Below, piece after piece: positions 25,929 to 48,422 of a stretch of 64,000 nt of DNA (position 1 is its first letter; every line of letters begins with the position of its first letter). Below the pieces are notes generated by a model, which saw only the letters and a program-made list of their open reading frames with translations, had not been told where the DNA came from and ran no database searches. The translations under genes and the position numbers were made by a program. The DNA comes from Pyropia yezoensis (Eukaryota > Rhodophyta > Bangiophyceae > Bangiales > Bangiaceae): NCBI GenBank assembly GCA_009829735.1, contig CM020619.1:33458283-33522282 (forward strand), given 5' to 3'.

Positions 25929-25999
25929 CTGAACCTTAATAAGTTAACTTAAAGGTAAAGGCTAACTTCGATAATATCGAAGTAACTAGGGGGCTTACA

Positions 26000-26055: not shown

Positions 26056-26234
26056 GCATGAACCAACCGGAAGAAGTTGGGCGGGAGGCAAGGCACCACT
26101 GAGCCAGAAGGGGTACTCCCCAGGGCAGCAAACAGGGGCAAGCAATGCCCCCAAAGGGGATGAGTTGATACTCACTACTACCCGGCCACCATAAGGGTCA
26201 CCGGGGCCCTCTCCCGCACTAACAATAGCGCTCC

Positions 26235-28604
26235 TCAGTGGGTAGACCCACTGCCCCAGGGAGGCCACTCACGCGTAAGCGCGTATACCTCCGTGCTCCA
26301 CCGGTCGGCAATCTCACGACGGTCAATCACCCGAGTTACCTCGGTGCATAGCTGGACGAGGGTGCTGCGGCCAGCCTCCACGTCCTCCAGAGCTTTCTGG
26401 AGGCGGTCCAGCACGCCACCGAAGCAACGCGCTGACCCAACTAGCGCAGCACCTGGGGGGATATCCCCCCAGCTAACAGAGAGACCCTCCCGCATTGCGC
26501 GGGCAACAAGGGCGTCAACGTCCTCATACCAGAGACGGGGACCCCCGTCTTGTATGACAGGGGCGGGAGCGGACACTGGCGCAGCCAGAGGAGCCAGAGG
26601 AGCCGACACGGCTACCACCGGAGCCGGTGGCACCTGATACGAGGCTCGGTAGGACCCTACCGAAGGGGCTCCACCGTAACCCCGGCGGGGCTCCGCCCGA
26701 CGACGGGACACCTCACGCTCCCCACCCGCAGAGCCCCACTCTCGGGGACGACGGCCAACCGCCGCCGGTATCGGGTTACCGAACCACGGGGCAAGGACCT
26801 GAAGAGGGTCATGGATAACCATGGGAATACCCAGGTCAGGAACGGCCTCGGTGGACGCCCACTCATGGCAACTAGGCTCACCCGGCTGAGTACGCCGGAT
26901 ACGCAACGAGTGACGAGGCAAGGGGGTAGCCCCAGCCTGCGGGTCCCGGTACGGGGGAAGGGCCAACACCCCAGCCCAGTTCACGGCATCGTGAACAGCC
27001 AGCAGAGCCTCGAACTCCCGGGCCAACCCGGTCTTGGCAGCTATCAGGTCCACGCCCAACTGCGCGATGTGCCGACGGACACCCGTCGGAAGATGAAACA
27101 GGCGCCCCTGCCGGCGGACGGACAGCAAGAAGGAGGACGCCTGCCCGAGGGTAACCTCAAGGGTGAAGGTACCCTGCAACGGGTGGACCGGCCGGGAGGC
27201 CAACACACTCCCGAAGTATCGGAGACAGGAGCCGGTGTCAAACTGGAAAGCAGGGGCGGGTTCCCACCCCTCCTGCCATAGCGGCGGGCGCACGGGAGTG
27301 TATACCGGCGCACGACCGTTGCCGGTCTGCAACGCACACGTTATATCCGTGCGAAACGCATCCGCCATGACACCATGGTTACGTCGCCAGCTCGACGCCG
27401 ACTTCAACCCCGCCATAGGCGGGTAGGGAGCCGTCAACGACAGATACGTGGATACCCCCGGGTAGTAATCAAAGTCGGGATACCGACCGGTACTGCCCAC
27501 CGTCTCCCCAAATGCAACCGGCTCCGCCGCCGCCGCAATCCCCCGAGCACTAGCCGGGTAGTCAATCTCCCGCGGCAACGCGGGAGCAATCAGGTCGCAT
27601 ACCCCGAAGGCGGGGTCGAGGTAGACCTCACCCCGTCCCACCCGAGTACGCCAGAGCTGCGCATGCCGGTCGTCCGGCTGACTCAGGATCCAATGGTGTT
27701 CCACTCGCACCGCGTTCGGCTGGTTGACCAGCCGCACCAACTCCCGCTCCCAACTCGGGTCCACCTTGACGCGCCGGGAGGACTCTCCACGGGGATGGGG
27801 CAGGTGGAAGTCCACCCGCATCCGCCCATCGGACTCCATTGACTCTTGCACAGTCAGGCCTCGAACCCGAGCCACCAAGTCGAACATCGACATGGCGGGT
27901 TGACCCGCCGCCACGGCGACGCCGCCACCCAACGGGGCAACCCGGGCAGGACCAGGAAGAATAGGGGGCGCCGGGGGATGCCCCACCGGAAGAGGGGCCG
28001 GCGCCGGAGTCGCACGCGGCCGAGGAGGAAGAAGAAGGGCGGGCGCCCGCCCGGAGTAACTACCGGAGTCCACTGCCATCGGTGTAGACCCACCTTGAGC
28101 ACTAGACGCCCGCGGCACCGCGGGCAGAGCATCGCCGCCACCCGGACCCGACGTGGGTACCACGGGGGCAGCACGGGTAGACCCGCTACCCGCCGCAGCG
28201 GACACACCAACCGGGCGGGCACCCGCGCCGTCTTGACCCGCCGTCCCGGTCGGGGTGCCACCATAACCGCCCGACACGCCGGCGACGCCGTCTTGAGGTA
28301 GAGCCACGCCGGTACCGGCGACAGAAGCCATCCGGGCCGCCGGAGGAGAAGCGGTAGAAGCCACCGCTGCACGCGGTTGTCCGCCACCCGACGGAGCCGT
28401 CGTGCCGCTACACACGGACGACAACCCGCCCGGCGCGCCGTCCGGGGCCACACGAACGGTCACCCGGTCGTCCTCGTCCTCCGACGAGCTCGCTAGGAAG
28501 CACTCGGCGGCGGTGGCGGAGACGGGAACGTCGTCCACCATCACCTCTTCCCCCTCTTCAGGCAGGAGGTCGTCCTCGCCCCCGGGTACCTGGGGGTCCG
28601 ACAT
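26235..28604 (-). CDS. Antisense accessory protein of element A (789 aa)
   Basis: A fully open frame on the strand opposite to gag-pol, from ATG 28604 to 26235, lying between pol and the 3' LTR. Residues 1-240 are acidic, then Ala/Gly/Pro-rich. Residues 240-560 look like a folded domain with Trp/Tyr/His-rich blocks: FDYYPGVSTYLSL (378-390), WRRNHGVMADAFRTD (406-420), FGSV (464-467), RRQGRLFHLP (497-506) and LLAVHDAVNW (534-543). The last three match the antisense protein of elements B and C in order and spacing. The C-terminal part is helical (about 690-780). No catalytic motif is recognised. A 789-codon frame free of stops in a young element argues for selection. Its promoter would lie in 28605-29195 or be antisense activity of the 3' LTR. 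Function unknown. Confidence 0.8.
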   Translation of the reverse strand: MSDPQVPGGEDDLLPEEGEEVMVDDVPVSATAAECFLASSSEDEDDRVTVRVAPDGAPGGLSSVCSGTTAPSGGGQPRAAVASTASPPAARMASVAGTGVALPQDGVAGVSGGYGGTPTGTAGQDGAGARPVGVSAAAGSGSTRAAPVVPTSGPGGGDALPAVPRASSAQGGSTPMAVDSGSYSGRAPALLLPPRPRATPAPAPLPVGHPPAPPILPGPARVAPLGGGVAVAAGQPAMSMFDLVARVRGLTVQESMESDGRMRVDFHLPHPRGESSRRVKVDPSWERELVRLVNQPNAVRVEHHWILSQPDDRHAQLWRTRVGRGEVYLDPAFGVCDLIAPALPREIDYPASARGIAAAAEPVAFGETVGSTGRYPDFDYYPGVSTYLSLTAPYPPMAGLKSASSWRRNHGVMADAFRTDITCALQTGNGRAPVYTPVRPPLWQEGWEPAPAFQFDTGSCLRYFGSVLASRPVHPLQGTFTLEVTLGQASSFLLSVRRQGRLFHLPTGVRRHIAQLGVDLIAAKTGLAREFEALLAVHDAVNWAGVLALPPYRDPQAGATPLPRHSLRIRRTQPGEPSCHEWASTEAVPDLGIPMVIHDPLQVLAPWFGNPIPAAVGRRPREWGSAGGEREVSRRRAEPRRGYGGAPSVGSYRASYQVPPAPVVAVSAPLAPLAAPVSAPAPVIQDGGPRLWYEDVDALVARAMREGLSVSWGDIPPGAALVGSARCFGGVLDRLQKALEDVEAGRSTLVQLCTEVTRVIDRREIADRWSTEVYALTREWPPWGSGSTH

Positions 28605-29183
28605 GGTGCAACCGGGGTGGCAGGGGCGCCCCTTGCAGAATAGCCGAGGCCGGCTCGACCCGGTACGAGGAACGCTCGCGCGGACGAGCCAGGGAAGCGC
28701 GGGCGCCCGCGCTTATGACCACAAACGGCCACGAGAAGCGCCTCAGGCGCGCGGGTCGACCCGCGCCCCACGAGGCTACGAACGGGCTCCACCCAGGCAC
28801 CTGGGCGGGCCGGGGCCACACCCCCGTACGGGGCAACCAAGAGGGGTTCACCCCGAAACCGCCCCCGCGAAAAGCGGGAGCGGCCGCCCCCATTCACTCG
28901 GTAACACGAGAGGGGCTCCCCTACCACCAGACACCTGGTGGCGGATCCGCTTGCACCACCCCTCGGAAAGGGGGGTCGTGAATAGAACCCGCATCGGGAA
29001 TTTAACGGTCCGGAAAACGGATCGTGTGTGTACCACACAAAGGGGGGCACCCCCCTCAGACAACCTCGAAAAGGGGTGTCTGTCGCGACGGGGCGCAAAG
29101 CCCCACCCGACTGGTAAACGGTCACGCGACCCACTTACATTCGGTAACCCAAATGCAACTCGACCCGAGGACGGGCCGAATCT

Positions 29184-29193
29184 AAGGGGGGGA
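29184..29193 (+). other. Polypurine tract of element A
   Basis: AAGGGGGGGA two bases before the 3' LTR, the expected plus-strand primer site. Confidence 0.7.
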
Positions 29194-29195
29194 TA

Positions 29196-29557
29196 TGTAG
29201 CAATATGGTTGGCCGTATTGTAGCCCTAATATTAGGGGGGCTACTTCTAATCCTTAACTTTAATTTGATAGTTCGTACTGGTCACGGTATCTATAAGTAA
29301 CGTATGACCAGAGGGACTTGCATCTTGGGGTGGAGGGTAGTTAGTAGTGTCTCCGAGGGTTTATAACGTGGGGGCCGGCGGCGAATCCACCGCCGGCCAA
29401 GGTAGAACAACAAACCCCTCCCATCTGGGCTCCCATCTTGGTCCCGTGGCTTGCGCTCCAAGGACAGCAACCTTGGCCTCCCGGTGACGTTGGTGCCGAT
29501 CCCCCTTGGTAAGTGTTCCCTGAGAGTGGACGTGCGACGGATCCCTATTGTGCTACA
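29196..29557 (+). repeat. 3' LTR of element A
   Basis: 362 bp with TGTAGC...GCTACA ends, paired with 18810-19172. Confidence 0.95.
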
Positions 29558-29562
29558 GCGCT
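29558..29562. repeat. Target-site duplication of element A (right)
   Basis: GCGCT, identical to 18805-18809. Confidence 0.9.
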
Positions 29563-31968: not shown

Positions 31969-32438
31969 TGTGGCAAAAACCACTCGCACACACAGCACCC
32001 AAGTTGGGGTGGTGCACAAGGGCGGCCTCCCGTGTCGGGGGAGCCGGAAGAAGTGCAAGTCGCACACACGCCATCTCTGTTGTGGGGCAATGCCCCCACG
32101 GCGAAACAAGAAAAAGGTGTGTGGTCCAACAGTTTCTTGGTCGGACCGGGAAAGCGAGGCCAAGCCCTGCTCTCCCTCCCCGAATCCCTCCAGGGTCCTC
32201 TCAGAATCTCACCACTCAGAATCTCCCACCCCAGCACCTGCCCACCGGGCCACACGAAAATTCAAGACGATAAAATGCAGAAAACCCTCAAATCCAGGTT
32301 GGATTTACTACTAAGCTAACTATCCCAAACTTAGGGAATATGGACCCAAATGCAGGGGGAGGAACGGATCAGGCTAGTGGCCTGCCGCCCCTTGCATGGC
32401 ACGCGTTGCCCCCCTACCTGGGGGCCAATACTGCCACA
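31969..32438 (-). repeat. 3' LTR of element B
   Basis: 470 bp. The right-hand 195 bp (U3 side in element orientation) match the right LTR almost perfectly. The left 275 bp differ at about 35 positions by eye and instead resemble the LTR at 16392-16861. Confidence 0.9.
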
Positions 32439-32450
32439 CTCCCCTCTCCT
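32439..32450 (-). other. Polypurine tract of element B
   Basis: AGGAGAGGGGAG on the minus strand, abutting the 3' LTR; the same tract precedes the 3' LTR of element C. Confidence 0.75.
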
Positions 32451-32776
32451 CAGTTCCGACCGACCCGGTCGGCCCTGTGAGGGGGTGCGTAAACGCACGT
32501 CTCGGCGTTGGGGGCGCGACTTGCTGTCCCCCCTCGAGTACGTAACGCGGATGTGGAGGCGGTCACGTTGACCGCCCCTCTCCTCAAGCTTGCCCACTCG
32601 GCAGCTTGCTGTCCCCGGTTCTCACTTCACCATCACCACCACCTCCCCTTCACCTTCCCCTGAGCCGCCCCACGCTGGGGAGGCCACCCGTCTACCCACG
32701 ATCCGAGTCCCCCTCAACTCGAGGCGGGTCTCGTGCCGCTGTATCCAGGGCGTCTCTCCCCAACTTGGGGAGAGCC

Positions 32777-34720
32777 ATGGCGACCCCGGGGGTGGAGACG
32801 GACTCCCTCGATGAACGTATGGAGGACACCTCCTACGGTGCGGCGCCCGCCGAGACTTCCGGCGGGGGCTCCGCGGTTACTCGGGTAGATGGGACTCCCG
32901 CGTCACCCGGCTTTGGGTTGACGGCGGGATCTCCCACAGAGGCGGGACACGTTGTCCCGCGTGAGGCCTTGGGGCGGTGGTTTTACCCCGCTTGGCCTCT
33001 GTATGAGGAGGGGTTGACTGTTCTTCGCTGTGGCCGACTTGGCCCAGCGATGGGTCGGGTATGGGACTGCCTACGGGAGAAGTGTCCCCGTAGGGTCGGG
33101 TTCCCTACCGGCTTCAGGACGGACCAGTTTGCCTTCCTGGACGATGAGAAGGTCGAGCACGTTCAGCGGGCCAAGGCCATGGTGGACCGCGGGGGAACTA
33201 TCCCGGGTCCCGGCGACTTGCCGACCTTCACGTGGGACGCTGTGGCAACTCGCCCACCGTACCTCCACGAGGCCGATCCGCACACTCATCACTTTGATGT
33301 GCGGATGGAGAAAGACTTCCGGCGAGGTCCCTACTTGGTGACCTCGGCTCAACTTGAGTTTCCTCAACAGTCTGCTGCCAGTAAGGAGCAGTACTATCCG
33401 AAGAAGCCCGAGTGGTGGCCTCAAGTTGAGGTCCCCTACGGGTTCCCGGCGTTGTTGCCACGGTTGCTTGACCACTTCGGCTCCGTCATGTTGACGGCTG
33501 CCCCTGATCACCTGGTGTGGGCCATGTTGGCCACCCAGTGGCTCCTCGAGGTCATGTCGACCTGGGTGTCCTGTGTTCAGCGGCGGGGGATGCTCTGGCA
33601 TCTCCCCCTCCGGCTCCTCCAAGGTTTGGAACAGCTCACCCCTCAGCTATTTGCTGAGGGGTGCTCATCAGGACAACTCACTCTACTTGAGGAGATGCTC
33701 CGGCTCCATAAGTTTATCGAGTGGGAGAGCATTGAGCACAAGTTGCGCCGCCCCACTCGTGGGCCCAAGGACGATGGCGCACTTCGCCAGTTCGTGTGGG
33801 TCGCTCGTGAACTTCACGACGGCCGTGTGGTCCTACAAGAGGGGTTGGGCATCGGGGACTACCCGTATGCCCCGGGGGTGGATCGCCACACTGCGCCACC
33901 CCCGGACAAGCCCATAGTTATGGCCGTGCCTTCTCATGATGACCACATGACTCAACCCACTGCAGGGGCCCCAAGTAGAAGTCGCAGCTACACCCGGGCA
34001 CCGCCACCTCGGCGTGCTCCTCCACCTCCTCCTGTCCCCAACCAGCCGCACAGGGACATCACGATTAGCGTAGCCGTTGAGTCGTCCACCCCGGTGTCCC
34101 CCAACTTGGGGGCCACCCTCCTGACGGTATACCCCAAGTTGGTGTTACCGGCCACGCCTCTGACCTCAGAGATGATGATCACCACGTTGGTGCGCACCAT
34201 TTCCTGGTTGGCCGCGTCGACCGCAACCCTGCAGAGTTCCGAGACTCCTCAACTTGAGGAGCGCGTTCGTACTGCAGTGGCGACCGCGAGTTGCGAGTCG
34301 GTGGCGGAGTTTATGACGGCCGAGTTGGCTCGCATTGGGGCTATTATGCCCCAGTCAGCCCCACTTGGGCGTGGCAAACGTCGTGCGAGCCGGGCATACT
34401 CGCCTCCTCGCCGTCGTCGCCGACGCTCCCGGCGCTCTCCCTCCGTATCGGAAGACGAGTTGTCTTACTCCGTCTCGGAGTCCTCCACTCCGTCAGAGTC
34501 GGAGTCGGTCCGGCGTCTGCGTCGTCAACTTGCGCGCAAGACTAAGCAGAAGGGCCGCCGCGGTCGTCGCCACTTGCGCGACCGTGAGGGGCGCGACGGT
34601 TCCGACTTGGAGCCGCCGGCCCCGCCGACTGGTGGGAAGCGTTATCGCCGTGAGTCTCACCGCTCTCCTCCACGTGAGGGCGAGGGCCGTGGGGTTGGAG
34701 AGTCTAGCATGCATGCCTAG
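32777..34720 (+). CDS. Antisense accessory protein of element B (647 aa)
   Basis: Open frame opposite to pol, from ATG 32777 (CCATGG setting, conserved in C and in the fragment at 16035) to TAG 34720. The N-terminal 60 residues are acidic (SLDERMEDTS). A probable folded domain (65-330) holds FDVRMEKDFRRGPYLVTSAQ (173-192), FGSV (234-237), RRGMLWHLP (269-277) and LRLHKFIEW (308-316). A Pro-rich linker follows, and residues 534-647 are Arg/Ser-rich with RS-like runs, suggesting RNA or DNA binding or nuclear location. Most of the gene is near-identical to the C copy, but the first 130 residues or so carry many differences. The gene ends 111 bp from the end of pol, convergent with it. No known family is recognised. 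Confidence 0.8.
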   Translation: MATPGVETDSLDERMEDTSYGAAPAETSGGGSAVTRVDGTPASPGFGLTAGSPTEAGHVVPREALGRWFYPAWPLYEEGLTVLRCGRLGPAMGRVWDCLREKCPRRVGFPTGFRTDQFAFLDDEKVEHVQRAKAMVDRGGTIPGPGDLPTFTWDAVATRPPYLHEADPHTHHFDVRMEKDFRRGPYLVTSAQLEFPQQSAASKEQYYPKKPEWWPQVEVPYGFPALLPRLLDHFGSVMLTAAPDHLVWAMLATQWLLEVMSTWVSCVQRRGMLWHLPLRLLQGLEQLTPQLFAEGCSSGQLTLLEEMLRLHKFIEWESIEHKLRRPTRGPKDDGALRQFVWVARELHDGRVVLQEGLGIGDYPYAPGVDRHTAPPPDKPIVMAVPSHDDHMTQPTAGAPSRSRSYTRAPPPRRAPPPPPVPNQPHRDITISVAVESSTPVSPNLGATLLTVYPKLVLPATPLTSEMMITTLVRTISWLAASTATLQSSETPQLEERVRTAVATASCESVAEFMTAELARIGAIMPQSAPLGRGKRRASRAYSPPRRRRRRSRRSPSVSEDELSYSVSESSTPSESESVRRLRRQLARKTKQKGRRGRRHLRDREGRDGSDLEPPAPPTGGKRYRRESHRSPPREGEGRGVGESSMHA

Positions 34721-34831
34721 TTGGCAGCTGCCTTTGTTGTGAGAGTGTGAGGGTTAGGGCTGTAGTTAAAAGCCACTCTGCGTACCACTTCGACTTGAAG
34801 CACTCTCTTGGCACTGTTACTCGGCCTTCCC

Positions 34832-37800
34832 TCACGTTGAGGGAGGGCTGTTAGGGTCAATCTCATTCCGGGCACAGTACGCCCGGACCTTCTCAGCGGG
34901 AAGGTCCTCCACATACTCCCACGTATCATCCTTGGCTTTGTAGCCAAACCAACGCACCCTCAACATGAGGCGGTCAGTGTCTTCATCCCAGCCGTGGTCG
35001 ATGAACTTATCGAACACGCACTCCTGCGGGCCCTGTTTGGCCGCAGGCAGCCAGGGGAGGCGCCACGCTTCCAGCGCACGCGCCCAAGCTGGGTCCCCTG
35101 CAGGCGGTGGTGCAACTTTGACCACGTCCTGTCCGTTCACTGTGCGGACCCCATCGTCACTTTCGATGGTGAAGCGCCGCCCATCAGTATGAAGGACCTG
35201 GTACGGCCCCTTCGTCTGGAATACCAACTTACCCCCAGTTGAAGTGTGTGAGTGAACCAGTACCCAGTCACCCTGCTCGAGGACGTGCTTGGCGTTGCGC
35301 ACCTTTTTGTCAAAGGTACGCTTGTAGCGCTTTTGTGCTTTGTCCATCTCAGCCCTGACTTTAGGGATGAGGTTTTCAAGCCTAGCAGCGAACTCCGCCT
35401 TACTCTCAGTAGGAGTAGGCGTACTGCCACCATCCTCCCTAGATGGGAGCGGCCGCCGCACGGCTATAGACCGCACGCGGCGGGAGGTCACAAAAGCGAG
35501 GGGTACTTCCATGGTAGATGAGTGAACCTGCGAATTGTAGGCAGTGGCAAGAATAGAAATGTATTGGTCCCACGTTTTCACGTGCTCACTCACATAGTGG
35601 CGCAGCTGCCGAACAACAGTTTTGTTGAAGCGCTCCACCTGCCCATTAGTTTGTGGGTGGTAGGGGGTGGCATAGTTTGCCCTCACCCCCAACATATCCA
35701 GCACTCCCTGAAACAGTACAGACGCAAATTGCGGTCCATTGTCCGATAGTGTACTATCCGGAATGCCATACGCGGCAACCCAGTGATCTAGGAAGGCTGA
35801 TACGACCGACATGGCCGTGATCTCTGCTAGTGGGATCGCTCGCGTAAGTTTCGTGAAGCGGTCACAGATGACCAGGAGGTACTGGTTGCCCTCCTCGGTC
35901 ACTGGCAGTGGCCCAAGGATGTCCATCGCCAACGCGGCGAAGGGCTCCTTGGCCGGGAACAATAGCATAGCCGTAGTAGGCCGCCGATCCATCAGACGGT
36001 TCTGCGCACAACTTGTGCAGGCAGCCACCCAACTGTAGATGTCCACCACCATGGACGGCCAGTAGTACCTGGTCCTCAGGGTCTGGTACAGTTTGCTAGA
36101 CCCCAGGTGTCCACCTGTGGGAGCGTTATGCTCCCTCTCAAGGATGCTGTCCTTGAGGGATGCTGGGACGACAAGTTGTTCGGTCCCCTGGAATACCCCC
36201 CTCCTCATGAGGAGGCCATCGTCTCCCAGAAAGAGACGCGTCTCTACCACTGTATCCAGTGTATCCCTCTGCGACTTGCAGAAGGGATCCTCGGCCTGGG
36301 CCTTCACCACCTCGTCCAGGGACAGGGGCAAGTACTTCTTGTTCCCTGGCGCCTCGGGGTTAAACGCCTGACCCGAGCGCGTGACTACCCCCACGATAGG
36401 GATGTCCTCATCGACTGGGTTAGTGTCCAGCCCCTCGGTAGGTACCCGAGAAAGGCCGTCGGCAAGAGCATGTTGCCTGCCAGGTCGGTACTCAATATCA
36501 AAGTTGAAGGGTGCCAGTTGCACCCTCCACTGGTTGAGACGAGTGTTCGTACAATCCGTCTTGAAGATGAACTGCAACGCGCGGTGGTCACAGCGGATGA
36601 GGAACTTCTCACCCTCCAGGTAGTGACGAAGTGACGTCACCGCCCACACCACTGCGAGTCCTTCCAACTCGGTGACTCCGTAGTTCTTCTCGGCCGAGTT
36701 CAGCCCCTTACTAAAGTATCCCACCGGCAAGTACTCCTTGTCCGGCTGCTGCTCAAGCAACACAGAACCAAGTTGGTCGTAGCTAGCGTCCACATCCAGG
36801 ATGTAGTGGCCTCCCAACCTGGGAATAGCCAAGATGGGGGGCTTCAGCAGAAGGTCCCGAAGAGTCTCAAAGGATTCCTGCTCCACCCGACTTGGGGGAG
36901 GCAGGTTCTTCGGTAGCGTTGAGCTCACTAGCTCATTCAACGGCTTCGCCACCTTGGCGAAGCCCTTGGTGAAACGTCGGTACACGTTACACATCCCGAG
37001 GAAGCTCCTCATCTGGGTCTAGGTCCGGGGATACTGAGCCTTACGAATGGCCCTCAAGTTCTTCTCGTTAACACTGAGACGCCCCGGATGGACAACATGT
37101 CCCAAGTACTCCACCTCTTGAGTGAAGAGGTGGCAGTTACTCGCCTTCAGTGACACACCGGCGTCAGCAAGTAGCTTGAACACCTGGCACAGATGGCCAA
37201 TGTGTTCCTCCGGACTTCGGGAGAACACAATGATATCGTCTAGGTACACGAGACAGATCTGCCACCGTACTGCGGCCAGAATCATGTCCATAGCGCGCTG
37301 GAAAGTTGCCGGCGCGTTACACAGACCAAACGGTAGACGCTTGCACTGGTAGGTACCACAGTGACAGGTCAAGGTAGTTTTATGCCTGTCCTCCGGGGCA
37401 ATGGTAATTTGCCAGTACCCCGCGATACAGTCCAGGGTAGAGAACACGTTTGCCTCCCCCAGAGAGTCCAGACAGTCGTCCATTCTAGGTAGGGGATAAC
37501 TGTCCTTCACCATGCTCTCGTTTAGCTTACGGTAGTCGATACAGAACCGGGGGGTCCCATCAACTTTGGGGACGAAAACCACCGGACTCGCCCACTCGGC
37601 ATTGCTGGCCTCGATCACATCAAAGGCCTCCATACGAGCGACTTGCTCCTTGACGAGGGCCCTAGAACGAGGTCCTCCCCTATACGGTTGTTGGCGTATA
37701 GGGGGTGCACCGGGCTTCAACTCGATCCGGTGTTGGGTGGCTCTCATGAGTCCCAATTGACCATCCCACAACTTGTGATATTCGTCGAAGAGGTGTTCAA

Positions 37801-38815
37801 CTTGAACCCTCAACCTGGGTGGAACACCCTCCATGTTCACATGGGGCCGAGGAGAGGCGGCCGACTTGGCTTGGTGCTTCTCCTTTCCGGGCTTCGGATC
37901 GCTACTTGCGCCCGCGTTGAGGGTGACCGCTACTACTGGTCCCTCGTGTTGGTCGATATACCCGAACTTGGCTCCCGACTTGAAGTACTTGGGCGATGAG
38001 CTCAGGTTCATCACCTGGATCCTCCACGGGTCTCCGGCTTTGGATTCCATCGTGCCAAGGGCAACATGCACTTGGTGCTTGCGAGCAAGACGGGGGTGAG
38101 GGTGCACCAACCCGTTCCCCGTATAATCCGTTGCAACGTCAACGTGCGCCACCGAGTTGGGGGGCAACGTGACTTTACGGGCTAAACGCAGGGTAGCAGT
38201 AAACCTTTCTCTCACAGAGCAAACAGGCTTCGACTGTAAGACTGTCACAGGAGCCACGGACTTTCCCTTGCCAAGGATGGGGATGGTTTCCCCATTCATC
38301 AACTTGACCCAATACTCAGGGCCACAAATCAAAGGCACTTGTGCAACGACATAAGGGGTACCCAGAAGTAGGGGTACCGATATATTCTCAACCACACCAT
38401 AGGTCACGTCGACCTCATGGGTCCCCAACCTAGTTGGTAGGGTCACGGCACCAACGATGGGAAGTACCCCACCATTGATATCGATCAGATGGTCAGCTTT
38501 AGTCCTCCAGCGTTGGAGCTTCACCTCCTTTGGTAATAGCGACTTGCGTATCAAGGAGGCTCCTGACCCGGTATCAAGTACGATACGGGCACAGCAAGCA
38601 CGGCCGGGGGCATGTTGCACCCGTCCAGCCACCTGGAAGTTCTCACCCGTCAGCACCGCGATGACCCGACGTGGGTTTACGTTCTTGGGGAGTCCTACCC
38701 GAGGTGGGCGGACTCCCTTAGGTCGCCGCAGTATCCGGCACGGTTGGTTCGTCCTCTTGGCCCACTTGGCCGAGGCTGCCGTTGTGAGCTTCGGACGGCC
38801 AGCTCCAACGGTCAT
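34832..38815 (-). pseudogene. pol: Pol polyprotein of element B with in-frame UAG
   Basis: It reads from ATG 38815 (overlapping the gag stop as ATGA) to 34832, 1327 codons, open except TAG at 37019-37021. Protease VLDTGSGASLI (D81), RT with LVYLDDIIVFS, the UAG directly after the RT thumb in QYPRT-x-TQMRSFLGM, RNase H (LDVDASY, ELEGLAV, RCDHRAL), integrase (H-H-C-C; AMDILGPLP, LSDNGPQF, QTNGQVERFNK) and a chromodomain-like tail (VRWFGYKAKDDTWEYVE). Element A has Gln at the UAG position. Element C has the identical UAG, so it predates the split of B and C. It may be dead, or the stop may be read through to make RNase H-integrase. Confidence 0.9.
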
Positions 38816-39523
38816 TCGTTTCCCGCCGACTTGGCGTCCGAATCTGAGGGCGGGGGGGAAGACGACGAGTCCGAGGACGACGTGTCCGCCTCCTCCGCCG
38901 AGGGTGTGGCGACCGCGACGACCGGTCGAGACCCACCCTCGCGGCGTGAACGCACGTTGTTCGTAGCCGACTTTTTACTCGCATTCCTAACAAGTTGTTG
39001 GATGCGTTTACTCAACATGGGGCAATCATATGCCCAGTGTCCATCGGAGTTGCAGTTCCAACACCCATTGTCTGCTTTCGGAGGGGTCTTCCCGACTGGG
39101 GAGGACGAAGAGGTACCCTGGGAAGTTCCCACGGCAGCTACCACCCTCTCCTTTCGGATTCGGCGCGCCTGCCTCAGCTCTCTGGCCTGGCGCGCCTCCT
39201 CCCGTTCCTTGGCCAACTCGGCCTGACGCTCCTGGCGTTGTTCCTCCCGCAACTTGCGGTAGGCCTCACCTCTGCGGTAGGCGAACCTAGCCAACTCGGC
39301 CAGGGTCGCCCGGGCAGTGTTATGCTCCCGGGTCTCCATCCGGACTGACCAATGGAGTCCCTCCACAAACCGACTCTTCACCACAGCTTGTGGATAAAGA
39401 AGCCCGCAAAGATTGGTGAGCTTACGAACCCGCTCCGCAAAGGACAACTCGTCCTCCGCCTCTTCCTGATGGGCTTGCGTAAACTCCTCGACTTGAGAAG
39501 CCAACGCCGCTTCATCAACCATG
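38812..39523 (-). pseudogene. gag: gag of element B, C-terminal part
   Basis: The C-terminal 237 codons: helical segment (DEAALASQVEEFTQAHQEEA), a long Arg/Glu-rich coiled coil (about 39160-39290), a CCHC knuckle (C-W-N-C-N-S-D-G-H-W-A-Y-D-C) and a Ser-rich acidic end. The stop TGA overlaps the pol ATG (ATGA). The N-terminal part lies 9.4 kb away at 48905-50147, separated by element C. Confidence 0.9.
39519..39523. repeat. Target-site duplication of element C (left)
   Basis: CCATG, repeated at 48905-48909; it derives from the gag codon for Met in LLRAMVDEA of element B. Confidence 0.9.
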
Positions 39524-39992
39524 TGTGGCAGTATTGACCCCTACGTAGGGGGGCAACACGTGCCATGCAAGGGGCGGCAGGCCACTAGCCTGATCCGTTC
39601 CTCCCCCTGCATTTGGGTCCATATTCCCTAAGTTTGGGATAGTTAGCTTAGTAGTAAATCCAACCTGGATTTGAGGGTTTTCTGCATTTATCGTCTTGAA
39701 TGTTCGTGTGGCCCGGTGGGCAGGTGCTGGGGTGGGAGATTCGGAGTGGCGAGATTCTGAGGGGACCCTGGGGGGATAAGGGGAGGGACAGCGGGGCTTG
39801 GCCCTGCGTCCCCGTCCCGACCAAGAAACTGTTGGACCACACACCATCCTCTTGTTTGTCCGTGGGGGGTTTGCCCCACAACAGGGACAGAGTGTGTGCG
39901 ACTTGCACTTCTTCCGGTTCCCCCGACACGGGAGGCAGCCCTAGCACACCGTCCCAACTTGGGTGCCGTGTGTGCTAGTGGTTTTTGCCACA
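39524..39992 (+). repeat. 5' LTR of element C
   Basis: 469 bp, TGTGGC...GCCACA, about 99% identical by eye to 48435-48904. Confidence 0.95.
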
Positions 39993-39994
39993 TT

Positions 39995-40011
39995 TGGTGG
40001 AGCAGCAGGGG
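39995..40011 (+). other. Primer-binding site of element C
   Basis: TGGTGGAGCAGCAGGGG two bases after the LTR, identical to that of element A although the LTRs are unrelated in sequence. Confidence 0.8.
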
Positions 40012-40111
40012 ACAGAGGTAAACTTTACCTCCGGGTGCACCCGGGTGTAGGGGGCCCTCTGTCTCAGAGGAACGGTGGTCTTGGACCGTGTCTTACGGAC
40101 CGTCAGCTAAC

Positions 40112-42061
40112 ATGGCTAGCTCGGACCCCCCGTCGTCCGAGGAGTACACGGGTGACGCACGTACTTCAGTGCCTTTGAATACTGGTGAGACACAGGTGGG
40201 CTTACCTGGGGTCGCAGAGGGACTGGAGGTCCCTCAAGCCAGCAGGACCGGAAGTACGGGCGGGCAACAGGCCACCCCGACTCAGTCGGGAGTTCACTCA
40301 GGTGACACTTCTGATGTGGGTGGGCCGAAGTCTGGCCACCGTGTGGTAAGCTCAACGGAAACGTCCCAAGGGGTGAGGACTGTCCCCGCGGGCTCCACTC
40401 GGGTTGGAGCCAACTTTGGCTTGGAGTCGTCGCCAACTAGGCTTTCGGAGGACGGTGGACCTCCGTTGGTCGGCGATGGGCTCGCGCCCATGCCCCCGGT
40501 TGAGACCCCTGAGGAACGTGGTCACCCCTCAGGTGGACTCCCGGAGGCGGACCGAGACTCAACTGGAGTCGTCAATCCACTCCTCGCGGAAACTGTCCGT
40601 TGGGAGGCGACCAATGTGTTGCGGCAGACTTTGCCGGACCTGGTGGTCACGATGACGAATACTATTCTGAATCAGATTGTGGCGAGTTTGCCAGATGGCC
40701 TTAATGTCCAAACCGGATTGGGGCTTTCGAGCCCGCAGGCGCAGGGGGAATCCCTCCTCACGCCTATATCAGGTCGCCCCGAACAGGGGGCGTCACCTGT
40801 GACTCCCAACGAGGGAGCCACACCATACTCGGTGGGGCGTACGCCCTTCACGCGGGAGTCCCATCCCCCGGAAACGCCGGCGGCTACACCAAGCGCGCCG
40901 CGCCGGACTACAGGCACTGAGAGTGAACTTACCCCAGTGCCACAGCGGCTGTTCCCTCAACGTGAGGTGCCGCCCAAGATCCAGGTAGCCAACCCGGTCT
41001 ACCAGAGGATCTTTGATTGTGAGACCTACGCCCTCCACAACAAGTCGGTGGCGTATGGTCCTGACCAGGCCCGAGCCATGAGCCGTGCCAAGAAGAATGC
41101 ACTTCATTCTTTTGGGCACAAAGCGGAGTGGGATGGAACTCCCCCCCTCCGTGTCTTTGAGTTCCTACGTCGTTTCACAAAAGCCTGTGACGACAATGCC
41201 ATAAGTGAAGGCATGGCTTTTTACATGCTACAGGAGTTCACGAAGGGCGACCTACGGACAGAACTTATGTCCGTCATGCCCAGCTACTCAAGTGGAGGCG
41301 CTGGGGAGGTGACGTCCTACTTGGAGCTCGTCAACTGGTTGTTGAGAGCCATGGTTGATGAGGCAGCGTTGGCTTCTCAAGTCGAGGAGTTTACGCAAGC
41401 CCATCAGGAAGAGGCGGAGGACGAGTTGTCCTTTGCGGAGCGAGTCCGTAAGCTCACCAATCTTTGCGGGTTTCTTCATCCACAAGCTGTGGTGAAGAGT
41501 CGGTTTGTGGAGGGACTCCATTGGTCAGTCCGGATGGAGACCCGGGAGCATAACACTGCCCGGGCGACCCTGGCCGAGTTGGCTAGGTTCGCCTACCGCA
41601 GAGGTGAGGCCTACCGCAAGTTGCGGGAGGAACAACGCCAGGAGCGTCAGGCCGAGTTGGCCAAGGAACGGGAGGAGGCGCGCCAGGCCAGAGAGCTGAG
41701 GCAGGCGCGCCGAATCCGAAAGGAGAGGGTGGTAGCTGCCGTGGGAACTTCCCAGGGTATCCCTTCGTCTTCCCCAGTTGGGAAGACCCCTCCGGGAGCA
41801 GACCATCGGTGTTGGAACTGCAACTCCGATGGTCACTGGGCATATGATTGCCCCAAGTTGAGTAAACGCATCCAACAACTTGTTAGGAATGCGAGTAAAA
41901 AGTCGGCTACGAACAACGTGCGTTCACGCCGCGAGGGTGGGTCTCGACCGGTCGTCGCGGTCGCCACACCCTCGGCGGAGGAGGCGGACACGTCGTCCTC
42001 GGACTCGTCGTCTTCCCCCCCGCCCTCAGATTCGGACGCCAAGTCGGCGGGAAACGAATGA
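40112..42061 (+). CDS. gag: Gag polyprotein, element C
   Basis: 649 codons from ATG 40112 (MASSDPPSSEEY). Pro/Ser/Thr-rich N-terminal third, a capsid-like helical core (about 300-470, including YGPDQARAMSRAKKNALHSF and FLRRFTKACDDNAISEGM), a highly charged coiled coil (about 490-560), one CCHC knuckle (CWNCNSDGHWAYDC) and a Ser/Asp tail. It is intact. The stop TGA (42059-42061) overlaps the pol ATG (42058-42060), a layout known from elements that couple the two reading frames by termination-reinitiation. Confidence 0.92.
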   Translation: MASSDPPSSEEYTGDARTSVPLNTGETQVGLPGVAEGLEVPQASRTGSTGGQQATPTQSGVHSGDTSDVGGPKSGHRVVSSTETSQGVRTVPAGSTRVGANFGLESSPTRLSEDGGPPLVGDGLAPMPPVETPEERGHPSGGLPEADRDSTGVVNPLLAETVRWEATNVLRQTLPDLVVTMTNTILNQIVASLPDGLNVQTGLGLSSPQAQGESLLTPISGRPEQGASPVTPNEGATPYSVGRTPFTRESHPPETPAATPSAPRRTTGTESELTPVPQRLFPQREVPPKIQVANPVYQRIFDCETYALHNKSVAYGPDQARAMSRAKKNALHSFGHKAEWDGTPPLRVFEFLRRFTKACDDNAISEGMAFYMLQEFTKGDLRTELMSVMPSYSSGGAGEVTSYLELVNWLLRAMVDEAALASQVEEFTQAHQEEAEDELSFAERVRKLTNLCGFLHPQAVVKSRFVEGLHWSVRMETREHNTARATLAELARFAYRRGEAYRKLREEQRQERQAELAKEREEARQARELRQARRIRKERVVAAVGTSQGIPSSSPVGKTPPGADHRCWNCNSDGHWAYDCPKLSKRIQQLVRNASKKSATNNVRSRREGGSRPVVAVATPSAEEADTSSSDSSSSPPPSDSDAKSAGNE

Positions 42062-45000
42062 CCGTTGGAGCTGGCCGTCCGAAGCTCACAACGGCAGCCT
42101 CGGCCAAGTGGGCCAAGAGGACGAACCAACCGTGCCGGATACTGCGGCGACCTAAGGGAGTCCGCCCACCTCGGGTAGGACTCCCCAAGAACGTAAACCC
42201 ACGTCGGGTCATCGCGGTGCTGACGGGTGAGAACTTCCAGGTGGCTGGACGGGTGCAACATGCCCCCGGCCGTGCTTGCTGTGCCCGTATCGTACTTGAT
42301 ACCGGGTCAGGAGCCTCCTTGATACGCAAGTCGCTATTACCAAAGGAGGTGAAGCTCCAACGCTGGAGGACTAAAGCTGACCATCTGATCGATATCAATG
42401 GTGGGGTACTTCCCATCGTTGGTGCCGTGACCCTACCAACTAGGTTGGGGACCCATGAGGTCGACGTGACCTATGGTGTGGTTGAGAATATATCGGTACC
42501 CCTACTTCTGGGTACCCCTTATGTCGTTGCACAAGTGCCTTTGATTTGTGGCCCTGAGTATTGGGTCAAGTTGATGAATGGGGAAACCATCCCCATCCTT
42601 GGCAAGGGAAAGTCCGTGGCTCCTGTGACAGTCTTACAGTCGAAGCCTGTTTGCTCTGTGAGAGAAAGGTTTACTGCTACCCTGCGTTTAGCCCGTAAAG
42701 TCACGTTGCCCCCCAACTCGGTGGCGCACGTTGACGTTGCAACGGATTATACGGGGAACGGGTTGGTGCACCCTCACCCCCGTCTTGCTCGCAAGCACCA
42801 AGTGCATGTTGCCCTTGGCACGATGGAATCCAAAGCCGGAGTCCCGTGGAGGATCCAGGTGATGAACCTGAGCTCATCGCCCAAGTACTTCAAGTCGGGA
42901 GCCAAGTTCGGGTATATCGACCAACACGAGGGACCAGTAGTAGCGGTCACCCTCAACGCGGGCGCAAGTAGCGATCCGAAGCCCGGAAAGGAGAAGCACC
43001 AAGCCAAGTCGGCCGCCTCTCCTCGGCCCCATGTGAACATGGAGGGTGTTCCACCCAGGTTGAGGGTTCAAGTTGAACACCTCTTCGACGAATATCACAA
43101 GTTGTGGGATGGTCAATTGGGACTCATGAGAGCCACCCAACACCGGATCGAGTTGAAGCCCGGTGCACCCCCTGTACGCCAACAACCGTATAGGGGAGGA
43201 CCCCGTTCAAGGGCCCTCGTTAAGGAGCAAGTTGCTCGCATGGAGGCCCTCGATGTGATCGAGGCCAGCAACGCCGAGTGGGCGAGTCCGGTGGTTATCG
43301 TCCCCAAAGTTGATGGGACCCCCCGGTTTTGTATCGACTACCGTAAGCTCAACGAGAGCACGGTGAAGGACAGTTATCCCCTACCTAGAATGGACGACTG
43401 TCTGGACTCTCTGGGGGAGGCAAACGTGTTCTCTACCCTGGACTGTATCGCGGGGTACTGGCAAATTACCATTGCCCCGGAGGACAGGCATAAAACTACC
43501 TTGACCTGTCACTGTGGTACCTACCAGTGCAAGCGTCTACCGTTTGGTCTGTGTAACGCGCCGGCAACTTTCCAGCGCGCTATGGACATGATTCTGGCCG
43601 GAGTACGGTGGCAGGTCTGTCTCGTGTACCTAGACGATATCATTGTGTTCTCCCGAAGTCCGGAGGAACACATTGGCCATCTGTGCCAGGTGTTCAAGCT
43701 ACTTGCTGACGCCGGTGTGTCACTGAAGGCGAGTAACTGCCACCTCTTCACTCAAGAGGTGGAGTACTTGGGACATGTTGTCCATCCGGGGCGTCTCAGT
43801 GTTAACGAGAAGAACTTGAGGGCCATTCGTAAGGCTCAGTATCCCCGGACCTAGACCCAGATGAGGAGCTTCCCCGGGATGTGTAACGTGTACCGACGTT
43901 TCACCAAGGGCTTCGCCAAGGTGGCGAAGCCGTTGAATGAGCTAGTGAGCTCAACGCTACCGAAGAACCTGCCTCCCCCAAGTCGGGTGGAGCAGGAATC
44001 CTTTGAGACTCTTCGGGACCTTCTGCTGAAGCCCCCCATCTTGGCTATTCCCAGGTTGGGAGGCCACTACATCCTGGATGTGGACGCTAGCTACGACCAA
44101 CTTGGTTCTGTGTTGCTTGAGCAGCAGCCGGACAAGGAGTACTTGCCGGTGGGATACTTTAGTAAGGGGCTGAACTCGGCCGAGAAGAACTACGGAGTCA
44201 CCGAGTTGGAAGGACTCGCAGTGGTGTGGGCGGTGACGTCACTTCGTCACTACCTGGAGGGTGAGAAGTTCCTCATCCGCTGTGACCACCGCGCGTTGCA
44301 GTTCATCTTTAAGACGGACTGTACGAACACTCGTCTCAATCGGTGGAGGGTGCGACTGGCACCCTTCAACTTTGACATTGAATACCGACCTGGCAGGCAA
44401 CATGCCCTTGCCGACGGCCTCTCTCGGGTACCTACCGAGGGGCTGGACACTAACCCAGTCGACGAGGACATCCCCATCGTGGGGGTAGTCACGCGCTCGG
44501 GTCAGGCGTTGAACCCCAAGGCGCCAGGGAACAAGAAGTACTTGCCCCTGTCCCTGGACGAGGTGGTGAAGGCCCAGGCCGAGGATCCCTTCTGCAAGTC
44601 GCAGAGGGATACACTGGATACAGTGGTAGAGACGCGTTTCTTTCTGGGAGACGACGGCCTCCTCATGAGGAGGGGGGTATTCCAGGGGACCGAACAACTT
44701 GTCGTCCCAGCATCCCTCAAGAACAGTATCCTTGAGAGGGAGCACAACGCTCCCACGGGTGGACACCTGGGGTCTAGTACACTTTACCAGACCCTGAGGA
44801 CCAGGTACTACTGGCCGTCCATGGTGGTGGACATCTACAGTTGGGTGGCTGCCTGCACAAGTTGTGCACAGAATCGTCCGATGGAACGGCGGCCTACTAC
44901 GGCTATGCTATTGTTCCCGGCCAAGGAGCCCTTCGCCGCGTTGGCGATGGACATCCTTGGGCCACTGCCAGTGACCGAGGAGGGCAACCAGTACCTCCTG

Positions 45001-46041
45001 GTCATCTGTGACCGCTTCACGAAACTTACGCGAGCGATCCCACTAGCAGAGATCACGGCCATGTCGGTCGTATCAGCCTTCCTAGATCACTGGGTTGCCG
45101 CGTATGGCATTCCGGATAGTACACTATCGGACAATGGACCGCAATTTGCGTCTGTACTGTTTCAGGGAGTGCTGGATATGTTGGGGGTGAGGGCAAACTA
45201 TGCCACCCCCTACCACCCACAAACTAATGGGCAGGTGGAGCGCTTCAACAAAACTGTTGTTCGGCAGCTGCGCCACTATGTGAGTGAGCACGTGAAAACG
45301 TGGGACCAGTACATTTCTATTCTTACCACTGCCTACAATTCGCAGGTTCACTCATCTACAGGGGAAGTACCCCTCGCTTTTGTGACCTCCCGTCGCGTGC
45401 GGTCTATTGCCGTGCGGCGGTCGCTCCCAACTAGGGAGGATGGTGGCAGTACGCCTACTCCTACTGAGAGTAAGGCGGAGTTCGCCGCTAGGCTTGAAAA
45501 CCTCATCCCTAAAGTCAGGGCTGAGATGGACAAAGCACAAAAGCGCTACAAGCGTACCTTTGACAAAAAGGTGCGCAATGCTAAACATGTCCCCGAGCAG
45601 GGTGACTGGGTGCTGGTACACTCGCACACCCCAACTGGGGGTAAGCTGTTATTCCAGACGAAGGGACCGTACCAGGTCCTTCGTACTGATGGGCGGCGCT
45701 TCACCATCGAAAGTGACGATGGGGTCCGCACAGTGAACGGACAGGACGTGGTCAAAGTTGCACCACCGCCTGCAGGCGACCCAGCTTGGGCGCGTGCTTT
45801 GGAAGCGTGGCGCCTCCCCTCACTGCCTGCGGCCAAACAGGGCCCGCAGGAGTACGTGTTCGATAAGTTCATCGACCACGGCTGGGATGAAGACACTGAC
45901 CGCCTCATGTTGAGGGTGCGTTGGTTTGGCTACAAAGCCAAGGATGATACGTGGGAGTATGTGGAGGACCTTCCCGCTGAGAAGGTCCGGGCGTACTGTG
46001 CCCGGAATGAGATTGACCCTAACAGCCCTCCCTCAACGTGA
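42058..46041 (+). pseudogene. pol: Pol polyprotein of element C with in-frame UAG
   Basis: 1327 codons, open except TAG at 43852-43854 (codon 599). Protease D81 (VLDTGSGASLI), RT with FCIDYRKLNEST and LVYLDDIIVFS, then the stop exactly between RT and RNase H, RNase H, integrase with zinc site and D-D-E, and a chromodomain-like end (about 46041 minus 60 codons; VRWFGYKAKDDTWEYV). Because C is young and B carries the same codon, the parent of C already had it and was still mobilised, either by readthrough or by enzymes supplied in trans. I type it as a pseudogene only because of that stop. Confidence 0.9.
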
Positions 46042-46152
46042 GGGAAGGCCGAGCAACAGTGCCAAGAGAGTGCTTCAAGTCGAAGTGGTACGCAGAGTGG
46101 CTTTTAACTACAGCCCTAACCCTCACACTCTCACAACAAAGGCAGCTACCAA

Positions 46153-48096
46153 CTAGGCACGCATGCTAGACTCTCCAACCCCACGGCCCTCGCCCTCACG
46201 TGGAGGAGAGCGGTGAGACTCACGGCGATAACGCTTCCCACCAGTCGGCGGGGCCGGCGGCTCCAAGTCGGAACCGTCGCGCCCCTCACGGTCGCGCAAG
46301 TGGCGACGACCGCGGCGGCCCTTCTGCTTAGTCTTGCGCGCAAGTTGACGACGCAGACGCCGGACCGACTCCGACTCTGACGGAGTGGAGGACTCCGAGA
46401 CGGAGTAAGACAACTCGTCTTCCGATACGGAGGGAGAGCGCCGGGAGCGTCGGCGACGACGGCGAGGAGGCGAGTATGCCCGGCTCGCACGACGTTTGCC
46501 ACGCCCAAGTGGGGCTGGCTGGGGCATAATAGCCCCAATGCGAGCCAACTCGGCTGTCATAAACTCCGCCACCGACTCGCAACTCGCGGTCGCCACTGCA
46601 GTACGAACGCGCTCCTCAAGTTGAGGAGTCTCGGAACTCTGTAGGGTTGCGGTCGACGCGGCCAACCAGGAAATGGTGCGCACCAACGTGGTGATCATCA
46701 TCTTTGAGGTCAGGGGCGTGGGCGGCAACACCAATTTGGGGTATACCGTCAGGAGGGTGGCCCCCAAGTTGGGGGACACCGGGGTGGACGACTCAACGGC
46801 TACGCTAATCGTGATGTCCCTGTGCGGCTGGTTGGGGACAGGAGGAGGTGGAGGAGCACGCCGAGGTGGCGGTGCCCGGGTGTAGCTGCGACTTCTACTT
46901 GGGGCCCCTGCAGTGGGTTGAGTCATGTGGTCATCATGAGAAGGCACGGCCATAACTATGGGCTTGTCCGGGGGTGGCGCAGTGTGGCGATCCACCCCCG
47001 GGGCATACGGGTAGTCCCCGATGCCCAACCCCTCTTGTAGGACCACACGGCCGTCGTGAAGTTCACGAGCGACCCACACGAACTGGCGAAGTGCGCCATC
47101 GTCCTTGGGCCCACGAGTGGGGCGGCGCAACTTGTGCTCAATGCTCTCCCACTCGATAAACTTATGGAGCCGGAGCATCTCCTCAAGTAGAGTGAGTTGT
47201 CCTGATGAGCACCCCTCAGCAAATAGCTGAGGGGTGAGCTGTTCCAAACCTTGGAGGAGCCGGAGGGGGAGATGCCAGAGCATCCCCCGCCGCTGAACAC
47301 AGGACACCCAGGTCGACATGACCTCGAGGAGCCACTGGGTGGCCAACATGGCCCACACCAGGTGATCAGGGGCAGCCGTCAACATGACGGAGCCGAAGTG
47401 GTCAAGCAACCGTGGCAACAACGCCGGGAACCCGTAGGGGACCTCAACTTGAGGCCACCACTCGGGCTTCTTCGGATAGTACTGCTCCTTACTGGCAGCA
47501 GACTGTTGAGGAAACTCAAGTTGAGCCGAGGTCACCAAGTAGGGACCTCGCCGGAAGTCTTTCTCCATCCGCACATCAAAGTGATGAGTGTGCGGATCGG
47601 CCTCGTGGAGGTACGGTGGGCGAGTTGCCACAGCGTCCCACGTGAAGGTCGGCAAGTCGCCGGGACCCGGGATAGTTCCCCCGCGGTCCACCATGGCCTT
47701 GGCACGCTGAACGTCCTCAACCTCCTCATCGTCCAGGAAGGCAAACTGGTCCGTCCTGGAGCCGGCAGGGAACCCGACCCTACGGGGACACTTCTCCCGT
47801 AGGCGGTCCCATACCCGGCCCATCGCTGCGCAAAGTCGGCCACAGCGAAGAACAGTCAACCCCTCCTCATAAAGAGGCCAAGCGGGGTAAAACCACCGCC
47901 CCAAGGCCTCACGCGGGACAACGTGTCCCGCCTCCGGGGGAGACCCCGCCGTCATCCCAAAGCCGGGTGACGCGGGAGTCCCAACCCCCGGAGCGATCGC
48001 GGAGCCCCCGCCGGAAGTCCCGGCGGGTGCTGCCCCGTAGGAGGTGTCCTCCATGCGCTCGTCAAGAGAGTCCGTCTCCACTCCCGGAGTCGCCAT
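46153..48096 (-). CDS. Antisense accessory protein of element C (647 aa)
   Basis: From ATG 48096 to 46153, intact and the same length as the B copy. It has the same blocks: SLDERMEDTS near the N-terminus, FDVRMEKDFRRGPYLVTSAQ, FGSV, RRGMLWHLP, LRLHKFIEW, a Pro-rich linker, and an Arg/Ser-rich end with SPPRRRRRRSRRSPSVSEDE and a second basic stretch. It lies 111 bp beyond the end of pol, on the opposite strand, with 338 bp between its start and the 3' LTR that could hold a promoter. Antisense ORFs at this site are described for some plant Ty3/gypsy elements such as Grande, but I cannot say whether this protein is related. Function unknown; the basic tail suggests nucleic-acid binding. Confidence 0.8.
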   Translation of the reverse strand: MATPGVETDSLDERMEDTSYGAAPAGTSGGGSAIAPGVGTPASPGFGMTAGSPPEAGHVVPREALGRWFYPAWPLYEEGLTVLRCGRLCAAMGRVWDRLREKCPRRVGFPAGSRTDQFAFLDDEEVEDVQRAKAMVDRGGTIPGPGDLPTFTWDAVATRPPYLHEADPHTHHFDVRMEKDFRRGPYLVTSAQLEFPQQSAASKEQYYPKKPEWWPQVEVPYGFPALLPRLLDHFGSVMLTAAPDHLVWAMLATQWLLEVMSTWVSCVQRRGMLWHLPLRLLQGLEQLTPQLFAEGCSSGQLTLLEEMLRLHKFIEWESIEHKLRRPTRGPKDDGALRQFVWVARELHDGRVVLQEGLGIGDYPYAPGVDRHTAPPPDKPIVMAVPSHDDHMTQPTAGAPSRSRSYTRAPPPRRAPPPPPVPNQPHRDITISVAVESSTPVSPNLGATLLTVYPKLVLPPTPLTSKMMITTLVRTISWLAASTATLQSSETPQLEERVRTAVATASCESVAEFMTAELARIGAIMPQPAPLGRGKRRASRAYSPPRRRRRRSRRSPSVSEDELSYSVSESSTPSESESVRRLRRQLARKTKQKGRRGRRHLRDREGRDGSDLEPPAPPTGGKRYRRESHRSPPREGEGRGVGESSMRA

Positions 48097-48422
48097 GGCT
48101 CTCCCCAAGTTGGGGAGAGACGCTCTGGCTATCGCAGCACGAGACCCGCCTCGAGTTGAGGGGGACTCGGATCGTGGGTAGACGGGTGGCCTCCCCAGCG
48201 TGGGGCGGCTCAGGGGAAGGTGAAGGGGAGGTGGTGGTGATGGTGAAGTGAGAACCGGGGACAGCAAGCTGCCGAGTGGGCAAGCTTGAGGAGAGGCGCG
48301 GTCAACGTGACCGCCTCCACATCCGCGTTACGTACTCGAGGGGGGACAGCAAGTCGCGCCCCCAACGCCGAGACGTGCGTTTACGCACCCCCTCACAGGG
48401 CCGACCGGGTCGGTCGGAACTG

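Follow-up and report, generated by a model that had tools for sequence, protein, structure and literature searches.

An antisense protein gene between pol and the 3' LTR of Ty3/gypsy elements in the red alga Pyropia yezoensis

The elements of the window and their antisense frames

The stretch of DNA analysed here (the window) is 64,000 nucleotides long and belongs to contig CM020619.1 of Pyropia yezoensis (assembly GCA_009829735.1, positions 33,458,283 to 33,522,282). It contains the Ty3/gypsy elements A, B and C, each with 5-bp target duplications, as well as fragment D and an inverted A-like fragment (Table 1). An antisense ORF lies between the integrase and the 3' LTR in A, B and C, and is truncated in D. 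The frames of A, B and C were found, with their lengths of 789 and 647 codons, where the first-pass annotation had placed them. The antisense ORF of D was also real, with the limits of Table 1 in place of the start at 15427 given for it earlier. The claim that every Ty3/gypsy element of the window carries such a frame holds for A, B, C and D; the A-like fragment is limited to a 5' end and is uninformative on this point. The CC-ATG-G start, described as conserved in three B-type copies, is present in B, C and D. The survival of the frame in B in spite of a broken gag had been offered as further evidence and is a weak argument, because gag of B was split by the young nested insertion C, and the intact frame of B therefore says little.

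Table 1. Features of the window (positions are those of the window)
Feature	Position	Strand	Remarks
A-like fragment, inverted	13228-15409		5' end only; cuts D at about 15409
Fragment D	15388-16861		LTR and partial internal region; cut by inverted A-like piece
Fragment D, truncated antisense gene	15388-16035	-	215 codons
Fragment D, LTR	16456-16861	+	
Element A	18810-29557	+	LTRs 97.5% alike; target duplication GCGCT at 18805-18809 and 29558-29562
Element A, 5' LTR	18810-19172	+	
Element A, gag-like ORF	19392-21581	+	729 aa; sub-threshold zinc-knuckle match only
Element A, RT-RNase H ORF	21590-24079	+	sub-threshold protease match
Element A, integrase ORF	24089-25756	+	sub-threshold chromodomain match at end
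Exchange cassette (A vs A3)	26206-28682	.	two-breakpoint model; breakpoints 26195-26216 and 28679-28693
Element A, antisense accessory gene	26235-28604	-	789 codons
Element A, antisense leader and spacer	28605-29195	.	antisense ATG to 3' LTR
Element A, 3' LTR	29196-29557	+	97.5% to 5' LTR
Element B	31969-50736	-	target duplication GCCGT; LTRs 92.6% alike
Element B, 3' LTR	31969-32438	-	
Element B, antisense accessory gene	32777-34720	+	647 codons
Element B, pol ORFs	34832-38815	-	726 and 598 aa; domains inferred from 97.7% alignment to C
Element B, 5' LTR	50267-50736	-	92.6% to 3' LTR
Element C	39524-48904	+	inside gag of B; target duplication CCATG (5 bp); LTRs 98.9% alike
Element C, LTRs	39524-39992 and 48434-48904	+	98.9% alike
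Element C, pol ORFs	42058-46041	+	RT, then RNase H-integrase with sub-threshold chromodomain match
Element C, antisense accessory gene	46153-48096	-	647 codons; basic, RS-like C-terminus

Over the antisense stretches of A, B and C each of the other five frames is interrupted by 7-28 stops. The open run from stop to stop measures 825 codons in A and 704 in C, as against maxima of 502 and 449 codons in simulated sequences of matching composition (first-order Markov, 2000 simulations per region). The start could be located by a short string in 18 of 30 C-family loci examined (12 not located) and reads CC-ATG-G in all 18, and the antisense ATG is kept in 27 of 27 gap-free C-family loci. Among the best-scoring C-family matches 55 of 63 are free of stops, in a sample that was picked via the ORF itself and to which copies without the ORF are invisible. 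Of 20 A copies retrieved via a match of 301 bases, 12 keep at least 824 open codons; this sample likewise starts from the ORF and leaves copies without it out of sight.

Several features of the sequence around the frames were recorded. The LTR pair of B is 92.6% alike, yet over 7.5 kb B matches C at 97.7%, with patchy differences; the LTRs of B look mosaic, as they would after template switching. When the LTR of D is compared with the B LTR at 31969-32438, the last ~310 bases are 94-100% identical (50-base bins) and the start 75-78%, and an apparent breakpoint lies inside the LTR of D. Elements A (19173-19200) and C (39993-40020) have a common stretch right after the 5' LTR, from about TTGGTGG, which fits a candidate primer-binding site against the CCA end of a tRNA. 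The window also contains a ferric reductase / NADPH oxidase-like gene (60558-62990, minus strand) with a third-position GC of 0.85, compared with 0.63-0.74 in the element genes measured.

Selection on the antisense frame

Element A was compared with a copy (L086) of the diverged subfamily A3, to which the Pyropia vietnamensis protein P0008 had led as a query. The antisense core gave a dN of 0.198 and a dS of 0.766, with a dN/dS of 0.26 (NG86, 621 codons). A codon tree of 11 A/A3 copies, namely A of the window and 10 of at least 67 matches to P0008, gave an omega of 0.274 and a lnL of -5685.2, against -5808.5 at omega 1 (run with kappa fixed at 3). The corresponding tree of 23 C/D-type copies (B, C, D and 20 of at least 150 matches; 202 codons) gave an omega of 0.438 and a lnL of -6084.0, against -6161.3 at omega 1. 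An omega of 1 is worse by 123 lnL units in the former set and by 77 in the latter. The comparison of dN and dS between copies had been named beforehand as a test, and its outcome is clearly below 1. In the A/A3 alignment, blocks of at least 100 codons range from 0.13 to 0.33, and the N-terminal 153 codons are the least constrained part, with a dN/dS of 0.53. The protein is conserved like other element proteins: for A and A3 the omega of pol is 0.15, lower than the 0.26 of the antisense gene, and the C/D-type value is that of the tree.

The five wrong frames of the 23 C/D-type sequences gave omega values of 0.53-2.16 and contain 55-129 stops. The sole one below 1 (sense +1, 0.527) has its third positions in common with the antisense frame and contains 117 stops. 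Over the 253 C/D-type pairs the pairwise dN/dS ranges from 0.17 to 1.00 with a median of 0.45. Fragment D and its five nearest relatives (5 of 22 comparisons) gave 0.66-0.89, as would follow from the decay of inserted copies, though this is weaker evidence. Polymorphism within the C family was scored in 27 gap-free copies out of 30 loci, which are best matches and hence biased to intact ones. In this set pN/pS is 0.085 for changes common to at least 4 of the 27 copies and 0.435 for singletons, and the three changes to stops are all singletons. The A-family set consisted of 17 of 20 loci (three dropped for gaps) and the window copy; pN/pS was 0.51 for singletons, 0.29 for changes in two or three copies and 0.54 for the 38 changes found in four or more of the 18 copies, in which constraint is not visible.

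A chance or shadow frame is ruled out by the Markov simulation, the wrong-frame controls and the dN/dS values, and the antisense frame is almost certainly a selected protein-coding gene. Purifying selection has kept this gene on the element lineages. The view of the first-pass annotation that it encodes a real protein and is a standing component of the elements is borne out by the values of 0.26 (A vs A3), 0.274 (11 copies) and 0.438 (23 copies) and by homologs in Pyropia vietnamensis.

Homologs and exchange of the antisense gene

The antisense proteins of A and C are 24% identical over 231 residues (BLASTP E 9e-10, single-pair comparison). Their alignment score of 120 stands against 35 +/- 5 for shuffles, none of 300 of which reached it, with a hhalign probability of 79; by alignment the two proteins are clearly homologous. 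A further family, F (L093), has RT, RNase H and integrase domains and a chromodomain of 37.7 bits, above the cut-off of 25.1; those of C (20.3 bits) and A (14.3 bits) are below it. The pol sequences of A, C and F are 36-44% identical in the parts compared. On the opposite strand F has a 608-codon frame, which begins 48 bp past the end of pol; the LTR of F was not located. Its product scored 103 against the C protein (shuffles 34 +/- 5, 0 of 300 reaching the score; hhalign probability 36) and is evidently a distant homolog of it in the same antisense place. The match between A and F is weak (score 70, shuffles 37 +/- 5, hhalign probability 5). The search with translated frames, which had been proposed, was extended beyond the window and found homologs in a second species. 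Five Pyropia vietnamensis proteins annotated as "hypothetical" are related to the A antisense protein with 44-60% identity: 46 and 44% over 77 and 64% of the A protein among 8000 scored candidates, and 54-60% over 51-99% of the core among the 7835 scored candidates of a further search. With the C protein as query a single sequence came up, at 94% identity. No Pfam family matched the A, C and D proteins up to E = 1, nor the A, C, A3 and P. vietnamensis proteins up to E = 10 (most matches above about 0.1 being filtered out). The best E values of a PDB sequence search, 2.2 and 0.46, are not meaningful.

Eight loci were picked by hand from at least 150 RT loci of the 107.5 Mb genome searched, and stretches of 2.5 kb were surveyed. 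As a general component of the elements the frame was upheld in part: one of the eight (L093, family F) has in its own element a homologous frame in antisense, and none was seen in the other seven, in stretches short enough to leave absence unproven. Three stretches reach neighbours, namely a C element (L090), an A-type gag on the other strand (L094) and an A-type element (L095). The homolog that appears sense-oriented in L095 belongs to this neighbouring A-type element of opposite direction, because an A-type LTR precedes it. No antisense homolog was found in the 2.5-kb stretches of L096 and L097, where absence is likewise unproven. L091 has a DDE transposase frame (DDE_Tnp_4, 1337-2500, minus strand) on the other strand and downstream of another RT family, which may be a captured gene or belong to a neighbour; the window has a DDE_Tnp_4 transposase at 10017-11363 (minus strand). 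L092 (1-720) has a Dam-type DNA adenine methyltransferase domain, downstream of an RT whose frame is 1673 aa long. Such domains are typical of DIRS-like elements.

Two diverged alleles of the antisense gene evidently share one backbone in family A. Between A and one A3 copy, identity is 93.6% in the integrase ORF, 92% from the antisense ATG to the LTR and 95% in the LTR, compared with 72% in the antisense core. A two-breakpoint model gains 285 lnL units, with 27% mismatch inside the block and 5.4% outside; identity is about 73% in the block and about 95% in flanks, pol and LTR, and from about 28700 on A and A3 are 92-99% alike by 100-base bins. In addition to the antisense gene the block takes in 29 bp past the stop and 78 bp ahead of the ATG. 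A second copy, typed as A3 by its match to the P0008 query, is 93.3% identical to A in pol, 93.9% in the LTR and 84% in the spacers. By coordinates, the at least 67 core matches include 16 of A3 type, 49 of A type and two unclassed, the type being read from where the match ends and the counts being lower bounds. An adjoining A3-type N-terminal match accompanies at least 14 of the 16 A3-type cores and at least 20 of the 49 A-type cores; the other 29, also a lower bound, show neither type of N-terminal match, and no A-type core was paired with the first 83 of at least 150 A-type N-terminal matches. The third haplotype, A4 (L095), has an N-terminus of A3 type, a core of A type and its own diverged patch near 28850, and is a recombinant within the antisense gene.

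The antisense gene looks as if it had been exchanged as a cassette between subfamilies. If instead there had been no exchange and the mutation rate were only locally higher in the gene, the fit of the block to the gene within 29 and 78 bp would be explained, which random breakpoints would not predict. This reading is nevertheless very unlikely. The dS between A and A3 is 0.77 in the antisense gene and 0.11-0.20 in pol, so that faster protein change alone cannot explain the block, and the antisense leader and the LTR remain 92% and 95% identical. L095 combines the two types in one gene, and the cores of L079, L083 and L084, which have A3-type N-terminal matches, are 94.6-95.2% identical to that of A, so that the core is not fast-changing in itself. 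Under the exchange reading, the two alleles would have come together through template switching, with RNAs of diverged lineages packaged jointly, a route favoured as being in line with Onsen LTR elements of Arabidopsis, which are described as recombining pairwise at a high rate, like retroviruses, in the available text of PMC5668417. The position of both breakpoints near the gene ends may reflect selection for whole, unmixed alleles; mixed alleles can spread, as A4 shows. Gene-exact exchange was looked for in a second family, with D and B, and was not found: identity is about 50-86% in the antisense gene, 64-94% in the spacer and first LTR part and then 94-100%, and the switch lies within the LTR, near 16550, away from the antisense ATG.

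Possible function and relation to known systems

The antisense proteins consist of a long conserved core and charged low-complexity tails. The N-terminus is acidic and serine-containing in A and A3 (net charge -15 in 50 residues of A). The C-terminus is basic and RS-like in C (+21 in 119 residues) and RS-like and mildly basic in F (+6 in 207 residues). Basic clusters are present in C and F, A has one short cluster and the P. vietnamensis protein none, and a nuclear signal shared among these four was not seen. The maximum 19-residue mean hydropathy across four proteins is 1.53, from which the antisense protein is predicted to be soluble. As candidate roles the first-pass annotation had named a regulator, an RNA-binding or nuclear-export factor and a silencing suppressor. 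Because of the makeup of the protein, its antisense place and the plant precedents, a nuclear accessory factor is most likely. The gene would be driven by an antisense promoter in the spacer that separates its ATG from the 3' LTR, and the protein would act in the nucleus, via the conserved core and the charged tails, on RNA or chromatin of the element itself. This action is modelled on proposals for plant antisense ORFs and on retroviral accessory factors; Grande GENE23 is described as nuclear and TRP28 as having DNA-binding predictions in the available parts of PMC7264820 and PMC11963269. The whole statement, an accessory protein gene of a Ty3/gypsy group in Pyropia that acts in the nucleus, is evenly balanced in our judgement, and the step to a nuclear regulator, drawn by analogy, is tentative.

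A silencing suppressor, which would block small-RNA or chromatin silencing by the host and whose diverged alleles would record an arms race, is rather unlikely. It agrees with the two diverged alleles and the in-gene recombinant on one backbone, with a protein change faster than that of pol and with the weak constraint on the N-terminal part; against it, dN/dS nowhere exceeds 1 in the frame, neither in the A/A3 blocks nor among the C/D-type pairs (up to 1.00), and no described family was matched in Pfam. It is improbable that the antisense strand supplies a structural or trafficking protein (envelope-, movement- or particle-associated), even though the gene has a long conserved core and sits between pol and the 3' LTR, the site of env-like genes in other elements (PMC7264820, available text). 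The orientation is antisense, a strongly hydrophobic 19-residue stretch is lacking in all four proteins, and the A antisense protein has no BLASTP similarity to A gag (best E 2.1). An envelope protein was rejected on the hydropathy and on the strand, which is not that of pol, and a duplicate of gag on the BLASTP result, for that pair only. Non-coding antisense RNAs are known from other elements (PMC7264820, available text), and an antisense RNA could matter here in place of a protein, for example as dsRNA limiting the sense RNA, with the frame incidental. This is hardly credible and is strongly disfavoured by the codon data, since dN/dS is well below 1 in the antisense frame and the only other frame below 1 shares its third positions and is full of stops. 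Returning to the nuclear accessory factor and the exchanged alleles, it is a speculative and not very probable extension that the gene is a specificity locus, with two ancient alleles kept by selection and swapped as gene-exact cassettes, each matching something lineage- or host-specific (cognate RNA, silencing factor or mutual exclusion). If true, a retrotransposon accessory locus would behave like a self-recognition or arms-race locus.

HBZ of HTLV-1 is a bZIP protein whose promoter lies in the 3' LTR. The genes of HBZ and of related retroviral antisense proteins are found near the 3' LTR (PMC11963269, PMC7264820, available text) and resemble the present gene as antisense accessory genes in that place; similarity was compared via Pfam only and gave no match. 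Env-like ORFs differ in being sense-oriented, and the Pyropia proteins have the low hydropathy given above. Antisense additional ORFs between pol and the 3' LTR (aORF-3R) comprise maize Grande gene23, rice RIRE2, Silene Retand, bean PvRetro13 and fungal Boty; as far as the available text of PMC7264820 goes, they are present in most copies without clear outside homologs, and land plants and fungi have antisense ORFs in their LTR elements, none of them with an established function. The Pyropia antisense gene is of this aORF-3R kind of Ty3/gypsy elements: place and orientation agree in A, B and C, and pol side and orientation in F. It differs in that the host is a red alga (the comparison being by description, not sequence), in that the integrase of F has a chromodomain above the cut-off, those of A and C falling below it, and in that codon-level selection and a gene-exact exchange block were measured in Pyropia yezoensis. 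Retand likewise has a long region from pol to the LTR with antisense ORFs in nearly all members and a TRP28 domain, PF04195 (PMC11963269, available text); neither TRP28 nor another Pfam domain was found in the Pyropia proteins. As to the non-chromovirus trait of Retand, a chromodomain passes the cut-off in F and stays below it in C and A.

Titles and abstract starts of the best-ranked literature matches contained no report of antisense ORFs in red-algal retrotransposons. The protein family, the red-algal host group and the gene-exact exchange block look new within the literature searched. With many copies, two alleles, an in-gene recombinant and a second species, the red-algal case shows that the protein itself is kept by selection, and the exchange block makes the antisense gene a separable module and a natural experiment for its function. 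Onsen elements also recombine pairwise, as members of one family in a burst (PMC5668417, available text), whereas the Pyropia exchange concerns a one-gene module with 27% internal mismatch on a 95% backbone.
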